IMG/VR virus record: IMGVR_UViG_3300031673_000213
Location: 1 to 38,036 of that record
Reading direction: 5' to 3' (one strand)
Length of the DNA: 38,036 nucleotides
DNA from: a virus
The notes beneath the pieces were generated by a model, which saw nothing but the letters and a program-made list of their open reading frames with translations, made no database searches and had not been told where the DNA came from. The translations under genes and the position numbers were made by a program. Shown here one piece after another: positions 17,999 through 38,036 of this stretch (its first letter is position 1; each line of letters opens with the position of its first letter).

Positions 17999-18238
17999 TT
18001 ACCTTTTAGGTCTAACATAAATTCTGCCTAAATCTGCACATACAGTATATTTACCTACAACTGCCGTGGGCATACTAAATTGTTTTTCTAAAGAAAACAG
18101 TTTGTCAAGAAATTCTTCTACATCCTTACAATCCAATTTAGTCTGCTTCTTATCATACGTTTCCCACGTACCCGCTCCAAACTGTTTCGTTGGTTTTTTG
18201 TTTGGATTATGTTCCATGTAAGTAATATCATATTTCAT
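17999..18238 (-). CDS. Small hypothetical protein, 79 aa
   Basis: 79 residues (starts MKYDITYMEHNPNKKPTKQF) with two cysteines, LDCKDVEEFL and YTVCADLGRIYVRPKR. The ATG overlaps the stop of the dnaE C-terminal gene as ATGA, suggesting translational coupling with the polymerase. Function unknown. Confidence 0.7.
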   Translation of the reverse strand: MKYDITYMEHNPNKKPTKQFGAGTWETYDKKQTKLDCKDVEEFLDKLFSLEKQFSMPTAVVGKYTVCADLGRIYVRPKR

Positions 18239-19533
18239 ACAAAACCATCCTGTACATCGTCATCATCGTCTAGATCGGCATGCCCTCGCTCTACTAATTC
18301 GTCTTCTATTTCTTCCAATAAAACATCCCTATCAGCATCTTCTACTTTAGTCTTCTTGCGAGGTCTGCGTACCATAACTTTCTTTGACTCTCTATCAACT
18401 GGCAACTGGGGAGCAGGACAACAACGTGCTACGTCCCCAAATATTAATGATATATCACCATCATACCAATTAAGCTCTCCATTTATATATAACCCAATAC
18501 CAGTATCAAATTTATACTTATTATTAAGAAGCTCGGCAACTCTATTTTGTAAATGCAGCCAGCCATCTGGGAAGCAGGTCATAGTCATTTGATTTCCCCA
18601 AGGATCACTTAGGGTTACCTTAGCCATTACCTCGCCTCTTATTTTAGAATCTTCCTTTTTAACCTTGAACTCAAAGAAGTTTTTAACCTCTGCCTGCATC
18701 ATAGTAACGTGCTTAGTATATTTTCTCTGATCCCTCTCTGACATATCATCGGGCGGTGGTGGATGGATGTTGGGCATCTTTTTGAAGCTGGGGGCTTTTT
18801 TAGTAAAAAAGTTGTCATACACCTCAAATTTGTTACCAGTAAGTCCCTCACCAAGATATTCACGCTCCATGGCGTATAATTCTGTTACAGACCACTCACC
18901 AATATCTTCTGGCCACGGATACTTAAACTCTCCTCGTTTGTCTTCCGGCTTCTTCATATGCACTTGAATCTTCTTTTTAATATCTGAAGCGTACAAATAC
19001 ATCTGTTTACGGGTTAGATTGAACGAATCCAAACTGCCGCTGGCTGCCAAAGCTTGAATAGCAGGAGCACGAACCTTGCGTCCATCCACTTTAGCTATAA
19101 AATCCTCAAAACCAGAGAAGGGTCGCTTAGGCAAAATCTCAGGAATAGCATCCTTTCCCATGTTTTTTAGAGCATCCATCCCAGTCATTAATGTATTATC
19201 ATCAACAATAGTATAGGTTGTACTGGATGTATTTATGTCCGGCGGTAAAATAGCAACATTAAGTTGTCTAATTTCTTCTTTGATGCGAGTAATATTATCC
19301 TTTGCTCCTAAAGAATTTGAATTTACTTCGCTCATAAGGTTGGATACTAAAAATTCCAATGGAAAATGAGCTTTAAGATAAGCGGTGTGGTATCCAATCA
19401 TAGAATAAAAAATTGCATGAGAGTTACTAGTCAACACGCCATTAGAAAGATAATATTGGTGATCTAGATGTTTCACTTCAAGATCGTAGACACGATGTTT
19501 ACCTATTGGTTTAACTGATTTTATGTTACTCAT
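18235..19533 (-). CDS. dnaE: DNA polymerase III alpha, C-terminal part, preceded by split-intein C half
   Basis: Second gene of a fractured dnaE. Residues 1-37 (from the ATG at 19533) are the intein C half: RVYDLEV (block F) and NGVLTSN ending in the splicing Asn. The extein then starts with Ser (SHAIFYSMIGYHTAYLKAHF), matching the DnaE motif that follows GFNxSH. About 395 extein residues follow: helix-hairpin-helix region, beta-binding and OB parts (EVMAKVTLSDPWGNQMTMTC), and an acidic tail. Joined to the N half it gives about 1183 residues, close to full DnaE length. The ATG at 19533 has AAGG upstream and overlaps the endonuclease stop by 8 bases; an earlier TTG at 19545 is less likely. Confidence 0.93.
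   Translation of the reverse strand: MSNIKSVKPIGKHRVYDLEVKHLDHQYYLSNGVLTSNSHAIFYSMIGYHTAYLKAHFPLEFLVSNLMSEVNSNSLGAKDNITRIKEEIRQLNVAILPPDINTSSTTYTIVDDNTLMTGMDALKNMGKDAIPEILPKRPFSGFEDFIAKVDGRKVRAPAIQALAASGSLDSFNLTRKQMYLYASDIKKKIQVHMKKPEDKRGEFKYPWPEDIGEWSVTELYAMEREYLGEGLTGNKFEVYDNFFTKKAPSFKKMPNIHPPPPDDMSERDQRKYTKHVTMMQAEVKNFFEFKVKKEDSKIRGEVMAKVTLSDPWGNQMTMTCFPDGWLHLQNRVAELLNNKYKFDTGIGLYINGELNWYDGDISLIFGDVARCCPAPQLPVDRESKKVMVRRPRKKTKVEDADRDVLLEEIEDELVERGHADLDDDDDVQDGFV
19423..19533 (-). other. Split intein, C-terminal half (37 aa)
   Basis: Residues MSNIKSVKPIGKHRVYDLEV through NGVLTSN. Block F (RVYDLEV) and block G (NGVLTSN) are present. The penultimate residue is Ser rather than the usual His, as in other DnaE split inteins that lack His there. 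The +1 residue is Ser. Expected to assemble with the half at 20449-20775 and splice in trans. Confidence 0.9.
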
Positions 19534-20566
19534 ATGCCTTACCAATGTAATGGACTCCAGGTGTTGGATTATCTAAAATGCTAAATACTTTATCTAAACA
19601 ATCTTTATTAAATCCATAATCACTCTTACGATAGGAAAATTGATCGTATGAAACTCTAATTAACATCCATTGGTGTTTAATAATGTGTTCGTCAAGCAAT
19701 CGATCTTTTTGCTGTATTAGTTTTAACTGATTAATTCTTTGTTCTACGAAATGTAGGATACCATCAAACTCTACGTATACTCTTTTTTTACGATCTGCAA
19801 AATCTATTTGTTTTATTTTAGTTTTTGATATAAATGTTTTCGATTTTACCCGTTGGTTTCTTTTAAAACAATAATCTGACCTAATAGATATTTTTGTAAA
19901 CAATTCAATTTCGGGTTTACTTTGCCATGACGAAATCATCTTCGCAATACATTTATTATAAAAATCCTCCGGATTATTATCCCTCCACTTTTTTAACTGC
20001 GCTGCGCGGTTTTCTTGAACATCTTTTCTGGCAGAAGTTCTCTTGGCTGTTTCTGATGCTTTTTTACGCATTACGTCGGAACGATTGACATTAGACATAA
20101 CTTGCGCCCGACGTTTTCTATCCTCAGGATTAGACATTATTGCTTCACTAACAGCTTTACTCATTTTAACTTTGTACTCGGAAAGGTCATCTCCTCTCTT
20201 TTTAGCTTTTGCAAGCCAGTTGCCAGCATCTTTTGCAGCGGAACAATGATTCTGTTTTGAATTTTCACAAATAACAGGACCATATTGTTTATTATATTTT
20301 TTTGAATCTCTATTGTGTACACCACGCAGATGACTAGTTAGTTGCAAAGCGTGCCAACCACACAATTTGCAAACAACGAAATCAACGCCATCTTTTAAAT
20401 TAGAAAACTTTAATTTGCAGCCTGGCACATGAGTATTAGCTTTATCTATATTCCAGAATCGTTTTTGACATCTTTTACAACGATAGTTAGTCCGTCCTTT
20501 ATTATCTGTTTCAGTGGTAACATTTCTCCATTCTCCACTGTTCTGAATTTGTGATTCATTGTGCAT
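19526..20566 (-). CDS. EDxHD (Vsr-like) homing endonuclease inside the fractured dnaE
   Basis: 346 residues. N-terminal zinc fingers: C30/C33 with C50, and C66/C69 with H79/H84 (VVCKLCG ... LTSHLRGVHN). The middle has NUMOD-like short helices (MSKAVSEAIMSNPEDRKRRA, MRKKASETAKR). The C-terminal third is a Vsr/EDxHD nuclease: SKPEIELF, VYVEFDGILHF at 263-273, QQKDRLLDEH at 285-294 and MLIRVSYDQF. Freestanding endonucleases of this family between split-intein halves are known from 'fractured genes' in phage metagenomes. The ATG at 20566 has AAAGGA five bases upstream inside the intein coding region, so the first 40 codons overlap the dnaE N gene in another frame. Confidence 0.88.
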   Translation of the reverse strand: MHNESQIQNSGEWRNVTTETDNKGRTNYRCKRCQKRFWNIDKANTHVPGCKLKFSNLKDGVDFVVCKLCGWHALQLTSHLRGVHNRDSKKYNKQYGPVICENSKQNHCSAAKDAGNWLAKAKKRGDDLSEYKVKMSKAVSEAIMSNPEDRKRRAQVMSNVNRSDVMRKKASETAKRTSARKDVQENRAAQLKKWRDNNPEDFYNKCIAKMISSWQSKPEIELFTKISIRSDYCFKRNQRVKSKTFISKTKIKQIDFADRKKRVYVEFDGILHFVEQRINQLKLIQQKDRLLDEHIIKHQWMLIRVSYDQFSYRKSDYGFNKDCLDKVFSILDNPTPGVHYIGKAYE

Positions 20567-23139
20567 TTTATCCTTTCCCCAGTATCCAACTCTACCTCTA
20601 CTAAATCTAACTCTCCATTATCGTGATTACAAATTACCTCAATAAATATATCTTCGCCAAATTCTTCATCTCTTGATTTAACAAACTCGCCGGACTTAAC
20701 TTGTTGGATTGGTTTTGATTCAATAAACTGTCCGTCATAAGTATATATATCAACAGTTTCCAAAAAGTGTAGGCAATGATTAAAACCGTATCCTTGAAAT
20801 TTATTAACCACTTCTTCCCAAATAGTTTCTCCAAGTTTCTTACCAATTCCATTCTTTATTGCACCTTGAATAAAATCTTCTTTCCACCCTTTTACCTTCT
20901 CAGGATTTTTCCCTTTCTCTTTAGTTAGCTTGCGCAAACGATCTGCTTCATGCATAGTCCAACCAGCCACGTCCTGCGCCAAGTACATTAAACATTCTTC
21001 ATATAAACCAAAACCCAAAGTTGGTCTGAATGCACGTTCCAATGACGTGTGTATTATTTCTACAGGCATTTCGCCATTCTTAGTTTTAACAAAATCTTTA
21101 CGAATATCACGTGCAGCCGGGCGTGCCAAGCTGTTAATAATAGCTAAGTCCTCAAGATTGGTTGGTTTAACTTTACGACATAAATCAACAGTGCCGCCAC
21201 TCTTGCCAAGCTGAAAAACACCGAAGGTATTTCCACTAGAAATTAAATCATAAGTTGCTTTATCACACTCATCATAATCTGGCGGATCTGGTGGAGGCTC
21301 TTTGCCGTTTGCTTTAATGAGAATGTAGGTATTATCAATTTTATCCAACGTTTCCACAGCTAACGTATCCATTTTCACCAAACCGTTAGCTTCGGCACGA
21401 TCTTTATCATACTCTATAGCTATATTCCCATCTTTATCACGACGTAGTGGAATTAAACCTGGAAGTGGGCGAGAACCAATCACCAAACCACCCGCATGGG
21501 TTGACCACGCCACTGCCTTACCGCCTAAATCCTTAGCAAATTCAGCTAGCTCAGGATATTTTTTAGCGTACTCGCCAAACAGTGGGGCATTTTCTATTGC
21601 AGTACTTACGGTTTTTAATTCTGGAGGTATAGCGTCAGCAATTGCCATTCCAACAGCAACTGCCGTCTTACGATCACCACCAAATTCAAATGTACGCGCA
21701 ATAGCTTTAGCATATGGTTTAGGAGTCATTGTGTTCACATTAGAAACGTGAGCTACATAATCCTCACCATACTTTTCTCTAATATACTTCTGTACCAAAT
21801 CACGTTTAGACGAGGCGAAGTCGATATCAATGTCGGGAAAGCTGGTTTTCTCTTTATTATGGAAGCGGGCAAAAATTAAACCATACTTTAGTGGGTCGGC
21901 AGTATGAATGTCGGTTAAATAACCAATTAGAGATCCTCCAACGGATCCCCTCCCGGGTCCAACTCTAATATTGTTTTCACGACAAAAATCGATATAATCT
22001 TCCACAATAAGCATGTACGAACTGAAACCGTGAAATTCAATAACTTCAAACTCTTCTTTAAGACGATCACGATACGGCTTCTGTTGGTCGGCTGGAAATT
22101 TTTTATTCAAACCAATTTCACATTTATAACGGAGATATAGTGAATCTTCAGCAATGCCTTCTACTGGGTTTTGTTTAGCCCACTGGAGAAAATTCTTATA
22201 ATCTTTTTGATCCTTTACCGGAAACTCTGGCAGCTCTTTGCCAGAAGGATTAGAATATTTAGGATCTATCCATTCTGGAAATTCACATTTATCTGCAAAG
22301 TAAACGGTGTTGTCCACACACTCTTGTGCAAACTTTTCACCAAACATACGAGTTAATTTGCTGACCACCTCTTCTTCAGACTTCATATAGAAATCAGGAA
22401 CATCATATTTCAAACGAGCCCCAGATGATAATGGCTGTCCAGACGCGATTGCCAACATAACATCATGAGCTTTGTGTTGTTCTGGTCTTACATAATGGGA
22501 ATCATTCGCTACGATACACTTTATACCCAATTCATCAGCTAACTTCTTTAGCTGACGATTGGTGAACACCTGATCCACTTCGTTACCATAAAGATTAGAT
22601 TTACGCCTCATACCATTAGGTTGAAGCTCAATAGCCAGATCGTCCCCAAATATATCATTAAGTTTGCGGGTTTGTGCTTTAGCCTCATCAAAGTTCTTGT
22701 CATTTAATAACTGGGCAATAATCCCATTACCACATGCTGTGGTACAAATGAGACCTTCATGATACTTCTTTAATATCTTCCAATCAATTCTAGGAATTGC
22801 CTTACGTAAAGAAACAATATAATTATCGAAACCTTCTTTAACTAAAGATAATAAATTCCTGTATCCTTTAGCATTCTTAGCTAAAAGGATGATGTGTCTC
22901 AGACGTGCCTCTTTATTTTGCACATCATCAACGAAGTACATTTCGGAACCGGCAATTAACTTTACACCAGTGTCATGGGACAGCTTTAAACAATCCCACA
23001 AACCGGCACACGAGCCATGATCGGTCACAGCAATAGCGGGCTGATCTAATTCTTTGGCACGCTTAAAAAGCTCCGACGGCTTAATCAAGCTGTCCATTAT
23101 TGAAAATGTAGTGTGATTATGGAGACTTACATAATTCAT
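20446..23139 (-). CDS. dnaE: DNA polymerase III alpha, N-terminal part with split-intein N half
   Basis: Replicative polymerase, first half. The PHP domain (1-270) keeps metal-ligand residues (H7, H9, D16, H41, E66, DSHY at 213-216), so proofreading is possible. The polymerase core has VGPGRGSVGGSL at 393-404 and the catalytic PDIDIDF at 435-441, and continues through the thumb and fingers to FQGYGFNH. At residue 789 the intein begins (CLHFLETVDIYTYDG), including TMNH (block B) and MLPLKQII, for 109 residues to the stop. AAGGA precedes the ATG but is held in a hairpin. No free DnaQ-like exonuclease or clamp loader is seen nearby. Confidence 0.95.
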   Translation of the reverse strand: MNYVSLHNHTTFSIMDSLIKPSELFKRAKELDQPAIAVTDHGSCAGLWDCLKLSHDTGVKLIAGSEMYFVDDVQNKEARLRHIILLAKNAKGYRNLLSLVKEGFDNYIVSLRKAIPRIDWKILKKYHEGLICTTACGNGIIAQLLNDKNFDEAKAQTRKLNDIFGDDLAIELQPNGMRRKSNLYGNEVDQVFTNRQLKKLADELGIKCIVANDSHYVRPEQHKAHDVMLAIASGQPLSSGARLKYDVPDFYMKSEEEVVSKLTRMFGEKFAQECVDNTVYFADKCEFPEWIDPKYSNPSGKELPEFPVKDQKDYKNFLQWAKQNPVEGIAEDSLYLRYKCEIGLNKKFPADQQKPYRDRLKEEFEVIEFHGFSSYMLIVEDYIDFCRENNIRVGPGRGSVGGSLIGYLTDIHTADPLKYGLIFARFHNKEKTSFPDIDIDFASSKRDLVQKYIREKYGEDYVAHVSNVNTMTPKPYAKAIARTFEFGGDRKTAVAVGMAIADAIPPELKTVSTAIENAPLFGEYAKKYPELAEFAKDLGGKAVAWSTHAGGLVIGSRPLPGLIPLRRDKDGNIAIEYDKDRAEANGLVKMDTLAVETLDKIDNTYILIKANGKEPPPDPPDYDECDKATYDLISSGNTFGVFQLGKSGGTVDLCRKVKPTNLEDLAIINSLARPAARDIRKDFVKTKNGEMPVEIIHTSLERAFRPTLGFGLYEECLMYLAQDVAGWTMHEADRLRKLTKEKGKNPEKVKGWKEDFIQGAIKNGIGKKLGETIWEEVVNKFQGYGFNHCLHFLETVDIYTYDGQFIESKPIQQVKSGEFVKSRDEEFGEDIFIEVICNHDNGELDLVEVELDTGERIKCTMNHKFRTVENGEMLPLKQIIKDGLTIVVKDVKNDSGI
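20449..20775 (-). other. Split intein, N-terminal half (109 aa)
   Basis: Starts with the nucleophilic Cys codon TGC at 20775-20773. Block A is CLHFLETVDIYT, and block B contains TMNH (the T-x-x-H of inteins). It ends with NGEMLPLKQIIKDGLTIVV and a short tail, closely similar in layout to the DnaE-N half of Nostoc punctiforme (DGQMLPIDEIF). The insertion point lies after GYGFNH, four residues downstream of the cyanobacterial DnaE site. The last third overlaps the endonuclease start. Confidence 0.92.
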
Positions 23140-23173: not shown

Positions 23174-23449
23174 CTAGGAAGCCTCGACGATCTTCAGCAG
23201 TTCAAGAAACTCGTCTCTTATTTTTTCACAACTAGAACCACGAGCATTAATTTTGGTTAACCCAAAAGAAGCTGAGGCGATAAAGGAATCCTTTTTCGCG
23301 TAGAACAAGCCAGAATTAATAAAATTAGCCGGAAGTAAAAATCCAGCTTGTCTAAACATATTTAGATGCCCACGGTTGATTGGTTTTTCAACCGTGAACA
23401 GCCAAGCTAAAGAGCCGCAACATGATTTAACTACACGACATTCTACCAA
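23174..23449 (-). CDS. Hypothetical protein, 91 aa, TTG start
   Basis: 91 residues from a TTG at 23449 with GGAG six bases upstream; no ATG fits before residue 31. The protein has a CC pair (VKSCCGSLAWLF), a hydrophobic middle (FRQAGFLLPANFINSGLFYA) and a charged C-terminal helix. It starts one base after the stop of the upstream gene. Not recognised. Confidence 0.65.
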   Translation of the reverse strand: MVECRVVKSCCGSLAWLFTVEKPINRGHLNMFRQAGFLLPANFINSGLFYAKKDSFIASASFGLTKINARGSSCEKIRDEFLELLKIVEAS

Positions 23450-23803: not shown

Positions 23804-24103
23804 TTATTCTTCGTTTGCTATCCAAGCTAAAACATGACCATGACAAAGTTTAGGTGAGCACCAACAACCAAGAACCTTACCTTTTAATTCTATCTTTATT
23901 GATTTTATTTTTTCTGGCTGACCTCTGACCCACTCATCATATTTCTCTACTGCTTCTTTTCTTGATTCTACTTTAAATTCAGCTAAGGTTCCCTCTTTAT
24001 GTGAGAATGGATTGCCCCATTTGGAAGGTCGTCCAATGTAGACATCATATGGTTTGATCTTGTGTACTACAAGATGCCAAATCTTCATGAACTCGATGTT
24101 CAT
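23804..24103 (-). CDS. DUF4326 family protein
   Basis: 99 residues with the DUF4326 signature: DVYIGRPSKWGNPF, then SRKEAVEKYDEW, then GKVLGCWCSPKLCHGHVLAW. The invariant GCWCxPxxCHG suggests a metal or nucleotide site, but the family's function is not established. It is found in many phages and bacteria. Its ATG overlaps the trigger-factor stop as TAATG. Confidence 0.85.
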   Translation of the reverse strand: MNIEFMKIWHLVVHKIKPYDVYIGRPSKWGNPFSHKEGTLAEFKVESRKEAVEKYDEWVRGQPEKIKSIKIELKGKVLGCWCSPKLCHGHVLAWIANEE

Positions 24104-25329
24104 TATTCCACTATTTTAGATTGATCTACCAACCACTGCATAGCATAATCGTTACGCAGCGTAGACACTAACCCTGCTAGCCGCCCGTTTTGAGCAGACT
24201 CGACAATGAATTTTTCCACATTAGGAACGCCCATCATCTCCAACCGTTTTTTAACCAGTTGAATAGCTTCCTCATCAGATAATTGTACCTCTGGCTCAGC
24301 TAAAGTGATAGAATCCATAACTAAAGCAAACTTAATCTGCTCTTTACCACGTTCATTGAACTTTTCCTTGGCATCATCTTCTAGATCATCCCACTTAACA
24401 CCTTCTTGTGCGGCAATCTGTTGCGCTTCCATGTTTAGAAGCCACGGTGGGACCTCAAAATCATTATTAGCAATCAACCGGTTCTTGATCTGAGAAGCAA
24501 CCATCTGATCTCTTTGAGATTTTAACTGCTTTTCTGAAGCTGCCTGAACCTCACCCTTCAATTTATCATAATTTTCGAGGTTTAATCTCTTTGCAAGCTC
24601 GTCATCTAATGGGCATGGTTCCTTTTTAGATCCCGAATGCATGGTAACTACTGCAAACATGTCTCCCTCTAAAGGAAATTCACGTTTTTCACCCGCAGTC
24701 ATGCCGAATAAGTTGTCATCGAACCCACCAGGAAGTTGATTGGTACCAATAACATATACGGCACCCTCTTTTGTTTGCAGCTCCTTCCCCTCAGCGTTCT
24801 TCTCATGGATACTAAAGTCCAAAGTGATCTGATCGCCTGGTTGAACAAAGTCGTTCTCACCATATGGACGAACATCGCCCTTCTGCTCACGTAAAGTTTG
24901 CAGCATGTTCTCTCGCAACTGATCGATGGTGGTTTCCAGGTGCGGTTCGGGAATCTCCATCTCTTTATATGGAGCCAACTCAAAATCTGGCTTCTTTAAA
25001 TATATTAATTCACATTGGAACTCGCCAGATTCCAGTTTAACATCCTTAACCTGATGGTTACCAATGGGTCGCATCTTAGTTTCGAACAAAATATCATCAT
25101 TAGCCTGCTGTAACATTTCGCGAGAGACCCAATCATTAATTTTATCCTTGTATCGTACCTTAATTGCAGTATCAGTTGCCTTCCCTGGACGAAAACCAGG
25201 CACTGGCATGGTACGAAGTTGTTTTATCGCTTCATGTCGCTTGTCTTTTACGACATCAGTGTCCCCAGTATAGTTAATTTTTATTTTACAATACTCAAGT
25301 TCTTCAGTTTCGATATTCATTTCAGACAT
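24103..25329 (-). CDS. tig: Trigger factor (ribosome-bound chaperone)
   Basis: Binds the ribosome exit tunnel and folds nascent chains. Residues 1-110 are the ribosome-binding domain with the signature PVPGFRPGK (42-50; E. coli GFRxGK loop). A PPIase/FKBP-like domain follows at about 155-240 (VQPGDQITLDFSI ... PGGFDDNLFGMTAGEKREF), and the C-terminal 160 residues form the helical arms (ASQIKNRLIANNDFEVPPWL). 408 residues is close to the cellular length (432). Phage-coded trigger factor is unusual; it accompanies bL12, IF-3 and a deformylase in this same window. Whether it replaces host Tig or favours phage proteins is not known. Confidence 0.93.
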   Translation of the reverse strand: MSEMNIETEELEYCKIKINYTGDTDVVKDKRHEAIKQLRTMPVPGFRPGKATDTAIKVRYKDKINDWVSREMLQQANDDILFETKMRPIGNHQVKDVKLESGEFQCELIYLKKPDFELAPYKEMEIPEPHLETTIDQLRENMLQTLREQKGDVRPYGENDFVQPGDQITLDFSIHEKNAEGKELQTKEGAVYVIGTNQLPGGFDDNLFGMTAGEKREFPLEGDMFAVVTMHSGSKKEPCPLDDELAKRLNLENYDKLKGEVQAASEKQLKSQRDQMVASQIKNRLIANNDFEVPPWLLNMEAQQIAAQEGVKWDDLEDDAKEKFNERGKEQIKFALVMDSITLAEPEVQLSDEEAIQLVKKRLEMMGVPNVEKFIVESAQNGRLAGLVSTLRNDYAMQWLVDQSKIVE

Positions 25330-35069: not shown

Positions 35070-35531
35070 TTACCTATTCCTATGTCCCCGAATTAGTCGA
35101 AGATTTACTTGCGGCGGGCTAACTAAACACTTGGTTTGTGCTTTAATCTTTACCGCTTTTTCTTCAACTTCGGGGGTTTTAAAGGGTATATCTAAATCTA
35201 ATCTTACATATAAGCCACATGATCTGTGACTTACAATAAATTTTTCATAATGGTCGTATTGTGGTTTTGACCACAACCGTTTGCCAATAACTGTTTGATC
35301 AAATCGATCCTGTAAATTATAAATAAAATGCCTAATAGCTGAATATTCGAACATCGCTCTATCAAAAAGGCGACAACTATCGAAGTAGTCCATCATAGCA
35401 TTGTTATTTTCTATATGATCACCAACCTTTAAAATTTTATTCTCTATGCCTGTGCAGTGTACAAAACCGTCCTCTACTCTGCCAAAGCATCCCAAAATAA
35501 CATACAAATCTTCTCTTGTCTCATTAGACAC
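35070..35531 (-). CDS. Hypothetical protein, 153 aa, GTG start
   Basis: Starts at GTG 35531 without an obvious ribosome binding site. An alpha/beta protein (EDLYVILGCFGRVEDGFV; HRSCGLYVRLDLDIPFKTP) with several His and Cys residues and a basic end (NLRLIRGHRNR). Not recognised. Confidence 0.65.
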   Translation of the reverse strand: MSNETREDLYVILGCFGRVEDGFVHCTGIENKILKVGDHIENNNAMMDYFDSCRLFDRAMFEYSAIRHFIYNLQDRFDQTVIGKRLWSKPQYDHYEKFIVSHRSCGLYVRLDLDIPFKTPEVEEKAVKIKAQTKCLVSPPQVNLRLIRGHRNR

Positions 35532-36641: not shown

Positions 36642-37163
36642 CTACGCTTGTTTACAGCACTTTTTATACTTCTTTCCCGACCCACAAGAGCATGGATCAT
36701 TGGGTCTTAACTTGTGCTTTTTGTTTACCTTTTCAACTATAGCCACATCGGGCAATAAAATTTGATTATAATGATTAATTTCATGCTGGCAAACCACTGC
36801 CAACATTCCCCTCACAATAAAAGAGCTAGGTTCCACAGCATTTTCAACAACATGCACCTCCTGGTATCGATATGTTTTTACAAACACACCAGGAAATGAT
36901 AAGCACCCCTCTCCTTCGAACAATGTTTTATCGAATCCTTTCGATATTTTACAATTCACCAAGTCAATGTTAAATTTATCATACCGTACAATCGCCATTC
37001 TTTTAGCTATACCAATTTGGGGCGCAGCGAGCCCTAAACCGGGGCTGCCTAAGTCTGCGGAGCGCTTAAGCTCCTTTTCTAAAGCTTCCCGCAGAGAGTT
37101 AATCTCTTCTGGCAGAACATCCACACACTCCACCCTGAGAGCGTCTTCATCTGTGATGATCAT
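36642..37163 (-). CDS. def: Peptide deformylase with C-terminal SEC-C zinc motif
   Basis: Removes the formyl group from new proteins. All three motifs are present: GLGLAAPQIG (42-51), EGCLSFP (85-91, metal Cys87) and QHEINH (126-131). The last 24 residues form a SEC-C motif, PCSCGSGKKYKKCC, with zinc ligands C158, C160, C169 and C170, as at the end of SecA. Cellular Def uses a C-terminal helix to bind the ribosome; here the zinc motif takes its place. AAGG lies seven bases before the ATG. It is the next gene after infC, likely in one operon. Confidence 0.95.
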   Translation of the reverse strand: MIITDEDALRVECVDVLPEEINSLREALEKELKRSADLGSPGLGLAAPQIGIAKRMAIVRYDKFNIDLVNCKISKGFDKTLFEGEGCLSFPGVFVKTYRYQEVHVVENAVEPSSFIVRGMLAVVCQHEINHYNQILLPDVAIVEKVNKKHKLRPNDPCSCGSGKKYKKCCKQA

Positions 37164-37171
37164 TGGTCGCC

Positions 37172-37717
37172 TTACGAAGCTTTAGCGCTAACTTCTGTAC
37201 TTTTTACACCCATTACCGAAAGCATTCTGCCCTGCATGAATGGATTAGTAGTTAATCCCATGTTGGGTACCAACTCGACAAACGTGTTTAAGGTTTCATA
37301 CCCCACTTCTTTGTGAGCTAGCTCACGACCTTTGAAAACAACAGTAATCTTTACTCTATTACCGCTATTGATAAATTTTTCAGCGTGACTGGCTTTAACC
37401 TTCAAATCATTTAAACCTGTGTTAGGTCTAAGTTTGATTTCCTTAACTTTTACAGCAGCTTCCCGCTGGCGCCGAGCGTCTTCTTTATTGCGCTTAGATA
37501 AATCGTATTTATATTTTCCATAATCCAAAATCTTGCACACTGGCACGTCATCTCGGGTAGTGGGCGAAATCTGTACTAAATCAAGCCCCGCCTGAGTTGC
37601 TATACTCATTGCTTCTTGGATGCTTATTACTCCAAGATTATCATTATTCTGATCAATACACCTAACTTCCTTTGCCCTAATTTTATATCCTACAGGAATG
37701 AATTTTTTATTCTTCAA
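37172..37717 (-). CDS. infC: Translation initiation factor IF-3, TTG start
   Basis: Full-length, 181 residues. N-terminal domain: IRAKEVRCIDQNNDNLGVIS, AGLDLVQISP, VCKILDYGKYKYD. Basic linker, then C-terminal domain: VKEIKLRPNTGLNDLKVKAS, ITVVFKGRELAHKEVG, ending SVMGVKST. IF-3 checks the start codon and prevents early subunit joining. The gene starts at TTG 37717, eight bases after AGGAG at 37726-37730; no ATG or GTG fits. Cellular infC uses a rare start (AUU) for self-control. A terminator hairpin is directly upstream. Confidence 0.95.
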   Translation of the reverse strand: MKNKKFIPVGYKIRAKEVRCIDQNNDNLGVISIQEAMSIATQAGLDLVQISPTTRDDVPVCKILDYGKYKYDLSKRNKEDARRQREAAVKVKEIKLRPNTGLNDLKVKASHAEKFINSGNRVKITVVFKGRELAHKEVGYETLNTFVELVPNMGLTTNPFMQGRMLSVMGVKSTEVSAKAS

Positions 37718-37730
37718 GTCACTATCTCCT

Positions 37731-37768
37731 AAAAATAAAAATCCCCATCACTTCTTTTGTAACAGGGA
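37731..37768 (-). terminator. Terminator or attenuator just before infC
   Basis: On the minus strand TCCCTGTTAC-AAAAGAA-GTGATGGGGA forms a 10-bp stem with three G-U pairs, followed by TTTTTATTTTT. The U-run ends at the infC AGGAG. It ends the upstream gene's transcript or attenuates read-through into infC. Since no promoter is obvious between it and infC, attenuation is worth considering. Confidence 0.75.
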
Positions 37769-37796
37769 CTTAAATTAAATTTGTAATACATACTTC

Positions 37797-37908
37797 TTAC
37801 AGTTGAATAATTGCTATTCCGCGTTCCTGCGGAGCGTTATCCTTCTCTTCAACGTTTTTTGTAGGCACATGTTCTTCGATATATAAATGTTCTATCTTTT
37901 CTTTCTTC
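37797..37908 (-). pseudogene. +1-frame tail of the partial gene at the right edge
   Basis: Downstream of the A-rich tract the +1 frame continues protein-like (EKIEHLYIEEHVPTKNVE and on to IAIIQL) to TAA at 37797-37799, while the original frame decays into basic codons and stops at 37849. The frame has no start codon after its last stop. It is best seen as the real C-terminus of the same protein, reached by a frameshift, slippage, or after a sequence error. Confidence 0.55.
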
Positions 37909-38036
37909 TTTTTTTTCTTTTTTATTATATAAATCGTACAGAAACGATAACATGTGCACGCCTCCTAGAAAATATCCCAAAATATGCCTAAACCTCTCAC
38001 AACCCCACACTGACACCGCCCAAAATAGTGAAATCA
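37849..38036 (-). CDS. Partial gene, hydrophobic protein, probably frameshifted
   Basis: An open frame enters from the right edge and stops at 37849-37851. The visible part is hydrophobic (LFWAVSVWG, ILGYFLGGVHMLSFLYDLY), then Lys/Glu-rich (NKKEKKEERKDR), which suits a membrane segment followed by a cytosolic tail. After the A-rich tract (37904-37923) the +1 frame looks more protein-like than this one. An internal ATG at 37953 with a perfect AGGAGG seven bases upstream could also start a short peptide. Confidence 0.55.
   Translation of the reverse strand, partial: ISLFWAVSVWGCERFRHILGYFLGGVHMLSFLYDLYNKKEKKEERKDRTFIYRRTCAYKKR
37909..37923 (-). repeat. A-rich slippery tract (A6-G-A8 on the coding strand)
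   Basis: The coding strand has six A, a G, and eight A. Such runs allow RNA polymerase slippage or sequencing and assembly indels. It lies exactly where the reading frame of the right-edge gene appears to change. Confidence 0.8.

Follow-up and report, generated by a model that had tools for sequence, protein, structure and literature searches.

The infC gene of bacteria is the textbook case of a regulatory start codon, in which an AUU-type start permits translation initiation factor IF3 to repress its own synthesis. The phage gene studied here belongs to the same family and shares with its bacterial counterparts (AUU start in Escherichia coli, ATC in Streptomyces) the combination of a strong Shine-Dalgarno (SD) sequence and a suboptimal start codon on an IF3 gene. 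However, its UUG falls in the class accepted by IF3, and IF3-dependent repression finds no support in these sequences. UUG is grouped with AUG and GUG as codons that IF3 does not discriminate (PMC4611024, PMC5472188), a specificity measured mainly in E. coli that may not be that of the host of this phage. Raised IF3 has a minimal effect on canonical starts (PMC2268962), and the efficiency of UUG is about 30% of that of AUG (PMC11497404). A start codon that sets dose by initiation efficiency is also known from sigR of Streptomyces, whose GTC start is IF3-sensitive and repressed by IF3; its replacement by TTG raised the amount of protein and did not lower it (PMC5472188). We found no paper discussing the start codons of phage infC in a search made largely outside subscription journals.

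Full-length IF3 genes have likewise been described in jumbo phages with genomes above 340 kb (Atu_ph07, Phosso, RaK2, GAP32, PBECO4, and Munch; PHROG 9787). Their starts are unlike the TTG of our gene: Atu_ph07, Phosso, and their kin have GTG, and the types of RaK2, GAP32, PBECO4, and Munch have ATG, with an SD that is weak or far from it. The neighbors also differ, with a Clp ATPase upstream or a ClpS-like gene downstream in the named phages, whereas our gene has a peptide deformylase downstream. A nucleotide-level search of named phages with the infC region gave no match.

The infC gene and its predicted start

The window, i.e., the whole stretch of DNA that we analyzed, is an entire virus record from IMG/VR (38,036 bases). 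It is a fragment, and infC lies near its end, on the minus strand (37172-37717, 181 aa). The product has both IF3 domains, with matches to IF3_N (2e-26) and IF3_C (1e-24) above the Pfam cut-offs. It also matches IF3 structures of the PDB (to 2e-36), the alignment with solved IF3 spanning both domains, and falls in PHROG 9787, annotated as "translation initiation factor". The earlier note had placed the gene at 37172-37731: it is indeed there, but the ORF itself reaches only to 37717, and 37731 takes in the SD.

The gene starts with TTG (37715-37717, minus strand), 8 nt from the SD motif AGGAG (37726-37730, minus strand). From the preceding stop, the frame reads TGA TGG GGA TTT TTA TTT TTA GGA GAT AGT GAC TTG AAG AAT AAA. 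The interval between this stop and the TTG has no in-frame ATG, GTG, ATT, ATA, or ATC, and the earliest in-frame ATG is codon 37, within the IF3 N-domain. TTG is the only usable start of the gene, and the in-frame reading confirms the earlier claim of a TTG with a good SD 8 bases away and no ATG or GTG candidate. Of the traits of IF3-autoregulated infC, the window gene thus has the strong SD preceding a weak start, and its TTG is not a start outside the AUG, GUG, and UUG set.

The next gene on the same strand encodes a peptide deformylase with a C-terminal SEC-C motif (36642-37163, minus strand). A deformylase motif is found shortly after infC in 6 of the 10 members of the jumbo-phage clade described below, and the window lacks the bacterial infC-rpmI-rplT arrangement. 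Further along the same strand are genes for thioredoxin, SbcC/D, DNA polymerase, recombinase, and trigger factor-like and DnaJ-like proteins, the last two named from reading the translations. The trigger factor-like protein (24103-25329, minus strand) matches a PHROG that has no assigned function. The gene for the replicative DNA polymerase (18235-23139, minus strand) seems to be interrupted: an endonuclease-like ORF lies between its parts, and there is a junction (SNGVLTSN) resembling that of an intein.

Start codons across the jumbo-phage clade

The closest relative of the window infC is found in L002, a 459 kb phage contig, with 73% identity and a TTG start as well. Further relatives came from two alignment-based scans, and identity of IF3 across the clade ranges from 42 to 74%. 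A comparison of infC starts in related phages, as suggested in the earlier note, gave TTG in 8 of the 10 syntenic jumbo-phage genomes (the window, L173, which is the same contig as L002, L174, L175, L177, L178, L179, and L180). The spacing between SD and TTG is around 8 nt in six of them and 10-12 nt in L175 and L179. The remaining two, L176 and L183, have an ATG located 15 nt from AGGAG. In the phylogenetic tree, the 10 members and L033, which was also read as TTG, form a single group of 11 rows (96/96).

As a control, we compared start codons in the 60-100 kb around infC from nine clade genomes, using 39 orthologous families found in 7 or more of the 10 genomes. The 38 families other than infC had 277 ATG, 19 GTG, and 24 TTG starts, and none had more than three TTG, whereas infC had eight when read by eye and nine according to the caller (the ninth lacking an SD). 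infC ranks first for TTG among these families, which all share the same tree (8/10 versus 24/320, Fisher test, P = 1e-7 with shared ancestry ignored). Selection thus seems to maintain the codon. The control rules out that TTG was kept by mere inertia, since another window gene starting with TTG (23174-23449) has ATG in most of the same clade genomes. Conservation of a non-AUG start is not unique to infC within the clade: a gene of unassigned function (35070-35531, minus strand, 153 aa) keeps GTG as its start codon in 8 of the 10 genomes.

Two other accounts of the codon were set aside. Derivation of the TTG from a bacterial gene is ruled out, bacterial infC being of the AUU type. An AUU as the real start was also rejected: the ATT ahead of the TTG in L002 and L031 is merely 4-5 nt from the SD, and this codon is missing in the window, L177, L179, and L180.

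Bacterial and viral infC starts

Starts were called with one simple SD rule, identical for infC and controls, and are all predicted. The earlier note stated that bacterial infC uses AUU, and among the bacterial loci, which are the 80 best matches of a larger set and not a random draw, the best-scoring start was indeed AUU, AUA, or AUC in 75 of 80. When the SD was strong, noncanonical codons were called in 67/70 bacterial infC versus 12/66 neighboring bacterial genes. The corresponding values were 8/23 for viral infC, no more than for their viral neighbors (24/94), and the difference between bacterial and viral infC has P = 4e-9 with ancestry ignored. Since viral infC behave like ordinary viral genes in this respect, the bacterial AUU-type signature is missing from the viral group.

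Among viral infC, strong SDs are found in most of those starting with TTG or GTG, and in only 2/29 of those called as ATG, versus 62/173 neighbors (P = 0.001, ancestry ignored). Conversely, strong-SD viral infC start with ATG in 2/17 cases versus 62/82 controls (P = 1e-6, ancestry ignored). This pattern fits damped initiation.

Among ordinary genes with a strong SD, 18-26% are given a noncanonical codon by the caller, and we therefore discounted the ATA and ATC calls in single viral loci, e.g., L058, L083, and L091. Three viral infC loci have no AUG, GUG, or UUG candidate at all: L049 (around 1944-2492, CTG after AGGAG), L054 (around 1914-2440, ATT after AAGGAG), and L062 (around 1971-2441, ATA, GTC, or ATT after GGAG). 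Judged from their sequences, these loci are stronger candidates than the TTG gene for having kept IF3 feedback. Scans for close kin of L054 and L062 found none near, and the scan with L049 found relatives at 39-48%. In several of the loci with GTG-start infC (L006, L034-L040), a TTGAC box and an inverted repeat lie shortly upstream of the SD and may form a promoter and its operator.

Possible roles of the UUG start

We think it rather likely that phage infC, preceded by a strong SD, has exchanged a start of the IF3-repressible class (AUU, AUA, and AUC) for an NUG codon that is weak yet canonical, in this case UUG. If so, the gene probably escapes IF3 feedback and does not retain it. Observed are the start itself, the conservation of TTG within the clade, and the contrast to bacterial infC; from these we infer the following function. 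Since IF3 accepts UUG, the IF3 of the host, present at its set point already, would be unable to silence the phage gene as it would an AUU gene, and the phage could add IF3 of its own. The low inherent efficiency of UUG would keep this dose moderate, which may be favored because too much IF3 is harmful to leaderless translation and to reinitiation without an SD; additional IF3 is reported to inhibit both reinitiation of the latter kind and the growth of M13 (PMC2268962). IF3 and the adjoining peptide deformylase may cooperate at the outset of phage protein synthesis. Against this reading, the gene-specific conservation of a weak codon behind a strong SD also resembles a feedback switch, and the distant ATG of L176 and L183 and the conserved GTG of gene 35070-35531 speak against it as well.

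Simple tuning of expression, unrelated to IF3, is possible, if on the unlikely side: the phage would need a low steady dose, UUG would be one route to it, and escape from feedback would be a by-product. The conserved GTG of gene 35070-35531 favors this explanation, as do the weak or badly spaced SDs of ATG-start viral infC. Non-AUG starts are in general associated with stronger SDs (PMC5622118), so that a weak codon with a strong SD is by itself no proof of regulation. Yet, tuning leaves unexplained why nearly all bacterial infC have AUU-type starts and phage infC have no such signature as a group.

The earlier note was right to see a meaningful codon in the TTG, a rare and gene-specific one kept in the lineage and not incidental, but its proposal that IF3 feedback was kept or re-evolved seems improbable. 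Such feedback would require that phage IF3, or host and phage IF3 together, discriminate UUG at the levels reached during infection and so repress the gene. The conserved layout, which is that of bacterial infC, argues for it, and so does a purified system with IF3 where UUG gave 55.8% full-length product versus 90.4% for AUG, with higher drop-off (PMC10158994). Some slight sensitivity of UUG at high IF3 could exist, as UUG is weaker than AUG. Against feedback are the nondiscrimination of UUG by IF3 (PMC4611024, PMC5472188), the minimal effect of extra IF3 on canonical starts (PMC2268962), and the GUG or AUG starts of other phage clades, which would give none. A re-evolved switch restricted to this lineage, in which UUG itself is gated by phage or total IF3, is similarly doubtful; if true, it would be a feedback switch acting on a codon believed immune to IF3.

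The region upstream of infC offers a further explanation. A terminator-like hairpin of 13 pairs (AAGTCCCTGTTAC / GTGATGGGGATTT; 37739-37771, minus strand, energy z of -3.6) is followed by a U-run that stops where the SD starts. It could be a transcription attenuator setting the expression of infC and the deformylase gene, with a secondary role for the start codon. L031 has a comparable hairpin in the corresponding position, and a search for a promoter-like site between hairpin and gene found none. Yet, L002 has no hairpin, none was seen in most other clade members, and the structure may merely terminate the upstream transcript, which makes an attenuator very unlikely. It is harder still to believe that translational coupling fixes the codon through a TTGA overlap with the stop codon of a small ORF upstream (cf. 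ATGA overlaps): in L002 the TGA of an ORF of about 40 codons does overlap the TTG, but the corresponding frame of the window has a TAG four codons earlier, and the overlap is missing in L178, L179, and L180 and is not common to the clade. We treated hairpin and overlapping ORF as local features. A small upstream gene, read by eye as a remnant or frameshifted (37838-37968, minus strand, ending in RGIAIIQL and a stop), has relatives ahead of infC in L002, L031, and L032. Relative to L002 (4709-4864), it seems frameshifted in an A-rich tract, by a sequencing indel, decay, or a programmed frameshift.

Escape from IF3 feedback through a weak canonical codon thus remains our preferred reading. One such codon persists in this clade despite large divergence of the protein, and the start of phage infC offers a clean test of whether phages must escape IF3 feedback, as well as of the supposed insensitivity of UUG to IF3.
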